From Harmothoe impar (lineage: Eukaryota > Annelida > Polychaeta > Phyllodocida > Polynoidae), in NCBI GenBank assembly GCA_947462335.1, contig OX381707.1, forward strand, positions 20,524,404-20,588,403: a DNA stretch of 64,000 nucleotides, in the 5' to 3' direction. Made by a program: the position numbers and the translations under genes. Positions 6,801 to 41,400 of this stretch are shown here, one piece after another (the stretch's first letter is position 1; each line of letters begins with the position of its first letter). The notes under the pieces are model-generated. The model did no database searches and was not told the origin of the DNA. It saw only the letters and a list, made by a program, of their open reading frames with translations.

Positions 6801-8429
6801 AGGCCATCAGGGACAGTGTGTCCCAGGAGAACCTCACCAATGTGGGCATCATCTATGATGAGAGCTTTAGTGAGTATAGTTCACCAATTATCTATGACGA
6901 GAGTTTTAGTGAGTATAGTTCACCAATGTGGGCATCATCTATGATGAGAGCTTTAGTGAGTATAGTTCACCAATTATCTATGATGAGAGTTTTAGTGAGT
7001 ATAGTTCACCAATTATCTATGATGAGAGCTTTAGTGAGTATAGTTCACCAATTATCTATGATGAGAGCTTTAGTGAGTATAGTTCACCAATTATCTATGA
7101 TGAGAGTTTTAGTAAGTATAGTTCACCAATGTGGACATCATCTATGGGGAGAGTTTTAGTGAGTATAGTTCACCAATGTGGGCATCAGCTATGATGAGAG
7201 TTTTAGTGAGTATAGTTCACCAATTATCTATGATGAGAGTTTTAGTGAGTATAGTTCACCAATGAGAGTTTTAGTGAGTATAGTTCACCAATGTGCACAT
7301 CATCTATGATGAGAGCTTTAGTGAGTATAGTTCACCAATGTGAACATCATCTATGGGGAGAGTTTTAGTGACTATAGTTCACCAATGTGGACATCATCTA
7401 TGGGGAGAGTTTTAGTGAGTATAGTTCACCAACACACTCAAAAAAGTCACCGTCATTGTCGCTAAAACCACTCTCATATGAAAGTCAGACACTGCCTGTC
7501 CTTCATGCGAGAGTGGTTTTAGCGACAATGACGCTGACTTTTCTGTGAATGTGGGCATCATCTATGACGAGAGCTGTAGTAAGTATAGTTCACCAACTAT
7601 CTATGAGTAGAGTTTTAGTGAGTATAGTTCACCAACGTGGGTATCATCTAAAACAAGAGTTTTAGTGACTATAGTTCACCAATGTGGGCATCATCTATGG
7701 GGAGAGTTTTAGTGAGTATATTTCACCAATGTGGTCATCATCTATGAGGAGACTTTTAGTGAGTATAGCTCACCAATGTGGGTATAATCTATAGGGAGAG
7801 TTTCCCTTTATATGTAGATCAGCCACAGATGCCTTCTTTGACTCAGTTACTATGGCTGTAGTTCTTTGAAGTACATGTAGGCGTATTTTAGGGCAAGGAA
7901 AAGTTTGTGGGTGCGCAGTGATGGTTTACTAAGTATTCAATGGACTGCAAACATTTCTATAGTAACTGCAAAACTTTCTATAGTAACTCTCGAACTCTCG
8001 AACTTCAACCTATGACTGAAAGACCATTGATCTTCTTAAAATAGATTTTGCACAATATCTGTGATTTCATTACTCTCCTCACGGAGGCAAAGGACAAGCA
8101 ACATGATGGTATCCCGGGGATGGTATAGTCCTCAAATGATATTGCAGTGGAACTGTTCATGAAGTATCAGAGATGATGATATTTCAGGAATTTACCCATG
8201 AAATAATTCTATTGTTTACAAATGTAAAGAACTTTCTGCCCTTAATACTGCAGATCTTGATGACAAACCTAAGAGGCTACTGCGCAACATCCCTGCGCAG
8301 CATCTGTACCTGCGCATGGCCACCAGCACACCGGAAATAGACGCCCAGCTGCAGAAGGTCAAGGCCGCCGAGTTACAGCACCTCTTCCTGGCCAGCAGCT
8401 CCCAGAATGCCGAGCGGTATTTGGGGCAG
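3802..8429 (+). CDS. IR25a: IR25a exons 1-4: signal peptide and first part of the amino-terminal domain (aa 1-231)
   Basis: Exon 1 (3802-3901) encodes a leader with hydrophobic core [16 protein letters not shown] and then the start of the bilobed amino-terminal domain. Exon 2 (4825-4980) continues in phase 1 ([19 protein letters not shown]) and contains NSSS and NES/NAT glycosylation sequons. Exon 3 (6609-6869) begins [17 protein letters not shown] and ends ...IIYDESF in phase 1. Exon 4 (8254-8429) begins [14 protein letters not shown] and ends at a phase-0 donor after ERYLGQ. A retained amino-terminal domain separates IR25a and IR8a from the shorter tuning IRs, which supports the co-receptor assignment. 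The donor of exon 3 is the first unit of a tandem array that repeats the exon end (see repeat at 6840-7800). Confidence 0.9.
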
Positions 8430-38400: not shown

Positions 38401-41400
38401 CCTGTTACTCTTACAGCTGCGTGTTTACAACAACATCCCTGTGTTACTCTTACAGCTGTGTGTTTACAACAACATCCCTGTATTACTCTTACAGCTGTGT
38501 TTTATAACAACATCTCTGTATTCTCTTACAGCTGCGTGTTCTCAGCCTTCATCATAGTGAGCGTGCTGCTCGCCGTGTTTGACCGCTTCTCACCCTACAG
38601 CTACCAGAACAACAAGGCATCCTGGGACGGGGCCGGAGAGGAACCCCGCATCTTCACACTCAAGGAGGGCCTCTGGTTCTGTATGACATCTCTGACACCA
38701 CAGGGTAGGTATTGTCTCTCACACCACATGGTATAGGTCTCAATTCAGACACAACAGGGCAGGTCTCGTCTCTCCCACTACAGCTTAGGTCTCATTTTTC
38801 AGACTACAGGGCAGATCTCATCTCTCACACCCCAGGGTCGGTCTCATCTTTCACACCACAGGTTGGGTCCCATCTCTCACACCACAGGTTGGGTCTCATC
38901 TCTCACACCACAGGGTGGGCCTCATCTCTCACACCACAGAGTAGGTCTCATCTCTCACACCACAGAGTAGGTCTCATCTCTCACACCACAGGGTGGGTCT
39001 CATCTCTCACACCACAGCGTATGCCCCATCTCTCACACCACAGGATAGCTCTCATCCCTCACACCACAGGATAGGCCTCATCTCTCATACCACAGGATAG
39101 GTCTTGTCATTCACACCATACAGCACTTATATAGGTCCCGTCTCTCACACCGTGGGAGGGTGTCATCTCTCACACCACATGCAGGGTAGGTCTCATCTCT
39201 CACACTACAGGGTCCATTTTATGCCTCACTCTACAGACATCATCTCTCACACCACATGTCTCATCTCTCGCACTACAGGGAAGGTATAATCTCTTACACC
39301 ACATGGTTGGTCTCATCCTCACACCACAGTGTAGGTCTCATCTCTTACTCAGCAGGGTAGGTATTGTCTCTCACACCAAAGGGCAGGTCTCGATCATCGC
39401 TCACACCACAGAGTAGGTCTCATCTCTCACACCACAGATTAGGTCTCATCTCTCACATAACAGGGTGGGTCTCATCTTTAACACCACGGGGTAGTTCTCC
39501 TCTCTCATGCCACAGGGAAGGTCTCATCTCTCACACCACAGAGTAAGTCTCATCTCTCACACCACAGGGTGGGTCTCATCTCTCACACCACAGAGTAAGT
39601 CTCATCTCTCACACCACAGAGTAAGTCTCATCTCTTACACACAGGGTGGGTCTCATCTCTCACACCACAGAGTAAGTCTCATCTCTCACACCACAGAGTA
39701 AGTCTCATCTTTCACACTATGCAGTACAGGATTATAAGCTTTGAGTGTCTCATTACCCCTCCGTCGCATTGCTGGCATCCCGAAAGACTGAGAATAAAGT
39801 TGTATGCTTAACTTGCATATGTACATGTTAATATTTGTCAACCCCTCTGCCAAGGCTTCATAATTATTTGTGACATGATGACAAAATGGTCAAAACACTT
39901 GATAGGCATTCCTAAATGTTCATAACATGATGTTCACCATCCTACAGCTATAGTCAAGACCTACTGAGAGGTTGTTATGCCCCTTGATTGGTGTTATCAC
40001 ATTATCATTAGATACCATCTTCCAATACTAATTTAACAGGCCCTTCAAAATGCCATTAAGGTTATATTGAAAACCCACTTCTGAATAGTTAAGGACATAC
40101 ACTGGAGTTTGGGGTGGTCATTTATGGCGGACATTGGATCATGGAGGTAATGAAGCCGACCACAGGACATTTAGAGATGCTCCCCTGTTGAGAAAGTTAC
40201 ATTCACCTAATAACCCCCTACAGTTTTATTAATTAACTTTCTCTTTGGCGGTTTTGCCAAGTTCTCTAGTCTGGACAATAGACTGACCACTGCTTCCATG
40301 TTCTGTTGTGACAGGAGGAGGGGAGGCACCACGGGCCTTGTCCGGCCGACTCGTTGCTGCCACCTGGTGGATGTTTGGGTTCATTATGATTGCGACATAT
40401 ACTGCCAACCTGGCTGCCTTCCTGACCGTATCGCGTCTAGACCAGCCTATAGGTAATGTACTTATAGCTATTTAACCCACACTGCCACAGTGGACAGCTA
40501 AGACAAAGGATTGGCACCTTGATTATTTCGCATACCCGAGGGTTAAGTCAGATAGACAACACCTGGCCAGGGTCATCGACTCAGTGTATGACACGTCGTC
40601 TTGACCCTGTGGGGCAGTGGGTATATGGAAGAACCGTGTCCAGGTGTAGTTTATCTAACACGTATACTTCAGTTGGTTGTGATAACAAAGGCAACAGTCT
40701 GTGTGTATGTTGTGTATGATTTAATCACTAGTGACGCGAGCCAGATATTGTACAGGCACTGTCCCTGTATTCATTATTTTGGACTCTGTCATGGTTGGGT
40801 ACACTCATCTTCGACACAGTTTGTCTGTAGCCAATATAATGTATACAGAGCCGTAGCTGTACTATATCTACTACATGTTTAGTAGATATGTAGTTCTATA
40901 CTTCTATTCGCTCTCCATCTCTTTTTCTCTGTCATACTGCATGCAGTAGATTTGTATCATTTGCACTTGTAGCCTTGATGAAGTCTCCCTCTCCTCTCAA
41001 CTCTATACATGTAGTATGCTTTTCTAGATAAACCTCAGCTCTCCTCTTCCTTCCCTCCTCAGCCATTCATAAATGTGTATAATGCAATGTATATTATATA
41101 TCATCATGCGAAGACACCTCTAATTCCTATGTCCATGTGTCTTTTCTGAACAGAATCCCTGGATGACCTGGCTAAGCAGTTCAAGACAAAGTATGCCCCT
41201 CAGAACTCCACGGCTACCGCCACGTATTTCAGACGTATGGCAGACATAGAGGATAAGTTCTATACGTGAGTACATAGCTACCTATTTCAGACGTATTGCA
41301 GACATAGATGATAAATCGCATACATATATACCTGGTACATGTAGTACAGCTACGTATCACCCTAGTAGTAAGGTCTGTTAGTGATTTATTGGAATGACTG

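Follow-up and report, generated by a model that had tools for sequence, protein, structure and literature searches.

The window analysed here is the whole 64,000-nt stretch of DNA at positions 20524404-20588403 of its contig in the Harmothoe impar assembly (1.51 Gb in 736 contigs). Within it, we placed exons 2-18 of an IR25a-like ionotropic receptor gene on the forward strand at 4825-49121, using tblastn with six IR25a orthologs together with GT/AG splice sites, and a GT or AG is present at each placed junction of these exons. Exon 1 was not found by tblastn with the six orthologs. Exon numbering follows that of the sequence-only reading that preceded this work, and the exon 17/18 phase is uncertain. 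Among the best 120 of 484 proteins, the best ortholog comes from the annelid Ridgeia piscesae and is 78% identical across 56% of the query; another annelid, Dimorphilus gyrociliatus, ranks third, and the named molluscs come after it.

The introns of this gene also hold coding sequence on the opposite strand: an EamA-type transporter in a single open frame at 18417-19454, a sulfotransferase coding stretch at 29177-29878, and an Fz-Sushi-TIR protein in a single open frame at 42773-44554. Repeat units of approximately 130/258 bp lie at 62706-63983.

Copied splice junctions in the IR25a introns

Local copies of the 3' ends of exons 3, 6, 13 and 15, and of the 5' start of exon 13, are found in the adjoining introns, so that the duplicated junctions are four donors and one acceptor. 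The sequence-only reading had claimed these five duplications, and all of them exist at the places claimed. Three of the five are true, long arrays, at the end of exon 3, the start of exon 13 and the end of exon 13, with units of 39/47, 37-39 and approximately 26 bp, respectively; the other two are two-copy duplications. The four exons concerned were each placed by tblastn and GT/AG sites, and they and their copies are given on the forward strand.

Exon 3 (6609-6869) has the donor A|GTGAGTATAG at 6870. The array at its end, whose 39/47-bp units include the donor, runs from approximately 6840 to 7810 and contains 19 junction copies. GT is kept in all 18 of the extra copies, and the sequence GT[AG]AGTATAG is present 16 times. 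The array is interrupted by an inverted repeat at 7429-7555 with 63-nt arms that are 83% complementary. This inverted repeat is a MITE-like near-palindrome of 127 bp with its arms 1 nt apart. A short CACCGTTATTTTTACGG-like inverted repeat, copies of which were located by eye at 41683-41954, 42398-42451 and 46111-46209, is possibly another small mobile element.

Exon 13 (38532-38704) is flanked by arrays on both sides. The acceptor array (37832-38540) has a spacing of 37-39 bp and consists of two blocks, 37832-38089 and 38394-38540, with approximately 300 bp of other sequence breaking it at about 38090-38393. It holds nine extra TTACAG sites, and its units, judged by eye, take in approximately 9-10 bp of the exon. 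Downstream of the exon, the array of approximately 26-bp units that includes the donor (38687-39717) has 33 recognised copies; GT is retained in 20 of the 32 that are extra.

The two-copy cases needed revision. At exon 6 (32827-32970, donor GAT|GTAAGT), what had been described as a simple 77-bp duplication is a real copy, but it comprises two 44-bp copies of the donor region (32958-33078), 77 bp apart and 93% identical; the 33-bp spacer between them, the remainder of the supposed 77-bp unit, does not match. At exon 15 (41154-41265, donor TAC|GTGAGT), a duplication of 58 bp had been described, and the spacing is indeed 58 bp; the copied sequence is 47 bp at 83% identity (41219-41323). Here ATATAT stands in place of the exon's GTGAGT and no donor is recognisable in the copy, so the claim that the splice site lies inside the repeated unit in every case holds for four junctions but not visibly for this one. 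The exon 6 copy scores 36.5 and the exon 15 copy 28.0, compared with maxima of 11.5 and 13.0, respectively, among 200 Markov resamples. Identity of the copies to the true junction is 71-100% at exon 3, 93% at exon 6, 83% at exon 15 and 69-84% at the end of exon 13, and these differences among junctions argue against a single burst of duplication.

Tandem arrays are often misassembled, and one of the cases in other genes described below is a perfect 75-bp duplication (positions 1-143 of stretch L034). We nevertheless regard both misassembly and a dispersed repeat abutting exons by chance as very improbable sources of the copies: the copies differ in sequence, two arrays are broken by other sequence, and the repeated unit holds the gene's own exon sequence. 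The inverted repeat within the exon 3 array and the break in the exon 13 acceptor array point to age and count against a mere error of assembly. When pieces of 121-139 nt, one from each long array, were searched against the 1.51-Gb assembly, each matched its own locus alone, with match counts that are lower bounds, and a dispersed element was ruled out for these three arrays on that ground.

We also considered whether the arrays could be functional, either through alternative splicing into repeated peptides or by providing redundant splice sites. A second exon 3 donor, if used, would add 13 residues in frame. Against such a role, just 3 of the other 15 exact copies of the exon 3 donor lie at a multiple of three, and none of the nine extra acceptors before exon 13 is in frame. 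Furthermore, over six arrays with 64 extra copies, the splice dinucleotide is off consensus at 13 of 128 bases (10.2%) and the rest of the unit at 10.4%, which is what would be seen if the extra copies played no part in splicing. Pooled in this way, splice dinucleotides show no more conservation than the sequence around them in the unit, and array function appears highly doubtful. The pooled value is heterogeneous, with GT kept in 18/18 copies at exon 3 and 20/32 at the end of exon 13. Where a 5' splice site is duplicated, the copies often compete and the intron-proximal one is preferred; the first exon 3 donor is therefore not necessarily the one used.

Junction-spanning events in IR25a and in control stretches

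Local duplication is common in this genome: IR25a has 26 events in 44.4 kb, and the control stretches have 82 in 255.5 kb. Events were detected as two-copy steps with offsets of at most 250 bp or as TRF arrays with periods of at most 500, and were counted as junction-spanning when at least 5 bp lay on each side of a junction. In IR25a, a gene picked for this very pattern, 5 of the 26 events span a junction compared with 0.54 expected (Poisson P 2.5e-4, uncorrected for that choice); two of the 26 belong to the exon 3 and exon 13 arrays as additional blocks. When unit cap and overlap are varied over nine settings, P for this selected gene, likewise uncorrected, ranges from 3.8e-6 to 1.2e-3. By position, there is no excess: owing to the length of the arrays, 9.6% of 5288 intron points lie in local repeats, compared with 4 of 33 IR25a junctions. 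The assertion that junctions would not be hit five times at random is therefore borne out when events are counted, but not when positions are. An earlier test with centred 36-mers had flagged 3 of 34 edges in IR25a versus 7.2% of intron points, and 1 of 84 edges in another set versus 5.0% of non-exon points; it was replaced because lopsided units escape detection by it.

The controls comprise 32 stretches of the same genome: 20 of 10 kb at the better-scoring of 79 iGluR-family matches, four of which adjoin one another, and 12 of 3.7-6.3 kb at 12 of approximately 18 dynein heavy-chain places. They contain 310 junctions (185 dynein and 125 iGluR) with protein-guided edges. This annotation, made with dynein and glutamate-receptor proteins, replaced a first one with 160 junctions, under which two junction-spanning events, that in stretch L025 included, were found versus 1.46 expected. 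With 310 junctions, 4 of the 82 events span a junction versus 3.22 expected (P 0.40). When the L025 donor is added by hand, since the best protein match probably stopped approximately 60 bp short of it, the controls yield 5 events at 311 junctions versus 3.24 expected (P 0.23). Over the nine settings the expectation varies from 1.49 to 4.29 and P from 0.018 to 0.43, the strictest setting giving an excess (5 versus 1.49, P 0.018). The position test flags 1.6% of the control junctions (5 of 310), compared with 3.5% of dynein and 6.2% of iGluR points. As a test for junction enrichment, these 32 stretches thus give 5 events against approximately 3.2, and random landing nearly suffices.

Pure chance, with duplications landing at random and IR25a being an extreme draw that drew notice, would account for the control stretches, which fit random landing, and for the position test in IR25a (4/33 versus 9.6%). 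It does not sit well with the difference in rate between IR25a and the controls (heterogeneity P 0.005 to 0.0125 over the nine settings), nor with the genome-wide excess of donor motifs described below, and we judge it decidedly unlikely.

Junction copies of the same kind occur in other genes. Arrays make up three of the five control cases: a donor array in L025, where the exon end reads TTCAGT|GTGAGTACT and 7.7 copies of a 31-bp unit read GTGAGT; an acceptor array in L024 (TTACAG|AGGCGTCAAG) with a spacing of 37-42 bp; and an acceptor array in L027 with 72-bp units. The other two are two-copy duplications of 75 and 89 bp at two acceptors in L034, the 75-bp one lying at the edge of the stretch. 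A second array in L025 (5948-6867; 35 bp, 26 copies) starts directly after the donor array of the IR gene. In L031, four dynein junctions were flagged, three by an offset of 862 bp that resembles an exon pair in duplicate and one by 469 bp; these cases stand outside the event counts, in which the two-copy step covers offsets of at most 250 bp and TRF periods of at most 500. In this stretch a dynein heavy-chain exon is present twice, 862 bp apart, with junctions near 2575-3543 (oriented), and the two copies are perhaps mutually exclusive exons.

Donor octamers in tandem across the genome

We counted tandem triples, defined as three copies of one octamer spaced 26-56 bp, throughout the genome. 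The strong donors AGGTAAGT and AGGTGAGT gave 3193 and 3304 matches, respectively, and the weak donor AGGTTAGT gave 1088. The non-donor octamers gave 186 (TGAATGGA), 132 (GATGAAGT), 565 (TGAAGTAG), 426 (TGAGTGGA), 507 (TGATTGGA), 93 (ATGGATAG) and 507 (GATAGGTA). Strong-donor triples are 11.5-fold commoner than those of the seven non-donor octamers (geometric ratio; t-test P 0.003, rank test P 0.028). These counts cover donors; the counterpart motif for acceptors is TTTACAGG.

Since matches inside one array are not independent, distinct arrays were counted by hand. Among the matches listed for the two largest contigs (C1 and C2, 235 Mb of 1512), AGGTAAGT occurs in 15 distinct arrays, AGGTTAGT in 10, TGAATGGA in 6, GATGAAGT in 3 and ATGGATAG in 2. 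Likewise, among the matches listed for C1, AGGTGAGT occurs in 16 arrays, or 15 if two of equal spacing that lie 154 kb apart form one family, compared with 3, 1 and 2 for scrambles. The 15 AGGTAAGT arrays exceed the control mean of 3.7, among matches listed, with a conditional P of 0.0004, in a comparison that rests on three scrambles of a kind of count in which octamers scatter widely; the same test with single-octamer counts from 319.5 kb gives P 2.6e-5. Some excess of arrays at donors is likely, and the motif counts weaken the earlier conclusion, drawn from the control stretches, that there is no excess at junctions.

Few real donors read AGGTAAGT (5 of 168), so the excess of its arrays should stem from a small class of sites. 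Among the matches listed, the -3 base of AGGTAAGT arrays is C in 11 of 17 and the +7 base is A in 11. A at -3 is found in 1 of these 17 arrays compared with 38 of 98 real donors (AG|GT), indicating that the arrays do more than sample real donors. When octamers with the composition of AGGTAAGT are pooled, the control stretches contain 10 octamer-arrays at 4 places among 5799 sites, or 1.7 per 1000; for AGGTAAGT itself on C1 and C2, a hand estimate from the 15 arrays among matches listed and 46.9 sites per Mb is approximately 1.4 arrays per 1000 sites. A greater density of arrays near genes may thus explain part of the donor excess, though background octamers lie near genes too. A long array of 52-bp units was also seen at C1:123662428-123666644, in which one unit, by eye, reads VQELLPAACLLQLTG before its donor; this resembles the exon end of a Kelch-like protein (BACK domain motif).

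The sequence-only reading had proposed a process that initiates at exon-intron boundaries. In such a case duplication would start preferentially there, chiefly at strong 5' splice sites, one possible route being transcription- or U1-linked breakage or template switching. The copies are real, the event-based null is exceeded in IR25a (5 versus 0.54, P 2.5e-4), strong-donor triples are over-represented (3193 and 3304 versus 93 to 565), and distinct arrays are in excess for AGGTAAGT on C1 and C2 and for AGGTGAGT on C1 among the matches listed. Set against this, the control junctions show little excess and are near random (5 versus 3.24 by events; 1.6% versus 3.5% and 6.2% by position), the control stretches hold 1.7 arrays per 1000 sites for pooled octamers matched to AGGTAAGT in composition, which is not below the value of approximately 1.4 for AGGTAAGT itself, and the -3 base of the motif arrays is unlike that of real donors (A in 1/17 versus 38/98). 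On balance, preferential initiation at boundaries seems to us unlikely.

Probable survival of junction copies and comparison with known systems

We favour, at a probability of roughly 0.55, survival plus expansion of duplications of the type known from amphioxus as mirages. Short tandem duplications at close range are frequent in this genome. A junction-spanning duplication would be tolerated when the outermost copy, that is, the first donor or the last acceptor, still yields the old mRNA. The inner copies, inside the intron, would then be free to grow into minisatellites by slippage or unequal exchange, while the exon-side copy, under coding constraint, would keep the array recognisable. The junction excess may accordingly combine tolerance, re-seeding from the conserved copy and longer recognisability, with IR25a probably being an unusually rich, selected example. 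Survival, easier recognition or gene-proximal array density can each yield part of the excess. Tolerance alone is opposed by the AGGTAAGT arrays, which at 15 versus 6, 3 and 2 for scrambles among the matches listed are more than we would expect from it, and the favoured account as a whole is opposed by the heterogeneity between IR25a and the controls, by the control excess at the strictest setting and by the contrast in GT retention that the pooled 10.2% conceals (18 of 18 copies at exon 3, 20 of 32 at the end of exon 13).

A link to the model of intron gain by tandem duplication at AGGT proto-splice sites had also been drawn. According to two reports, a tandem duplication across an intron-exon boundary copies the splice signals and can give rise to an intron, as in the case of the potato RdRp gene (PMC4974935, PMC3443670). 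Our copies share the boundary-crossing duplication with this model, but they lie within introns, and AG|GT spans the splice point at none of the five junctions concerned. The link is thus weak, and the model is a relative of the IR25a copies rather than a fit.

Ordinary intronic minisatellites likewise consist of expanded, diverged units some tens of bp long, but here the first or last unit holds a splice site and some of the exon. In annelids, tandem repeats are described in the first intron of earthworm metallothionein genes (PMC12783039). Among the papers listed by searches of the open-licence PMC library, some of which named annelids, none described an annelid mirage.

The closest counterparts are the amphioxus mirages, described in two reports as minisatellite-like tandem duplications of intron-exon boundaries in Adh3, the globins BflGb6 and BflGb9, PGBD5 and troponin C, with units from 10-72 bp (Adh3) to 150-160 bp (globins); splice signals are carried by many of the copies, though not by every one, and in amphioxus splicing is reported to be undisturbed and length to be unstable (PMC3087553, PMC3902484). 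The IR25a copies have the defining feature of mirages, tandem duplication of intron-exon boundaries, and are a real example of this known kind, most likely in a new phylum. They differ in having an annelid host and in numbering five in one gene. Acceptor copies here are those at the start of IR25a exon 13 and those in L024, L027 and L034. A bolder reading takes strong 5' splice sites as hot spots for the birth or preferential retention of tandem arrays in this annelid genome, with gene structure seeding minisatellites and one process repeatedly giving rise to mirages, independently in annelids and cephalochordates; it is tentative and, in our estimation, unlikely. With these copies, two old questions can be put to the test: whether splice sites are where minisatellites start, and how the spliceosome picks among many near-identical donors, such as the 16 copies of GT[AG]AGTATAG at exon 3. 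A structure known from amphioxus is extended to an annelid, with several cases in one gene and others besides.
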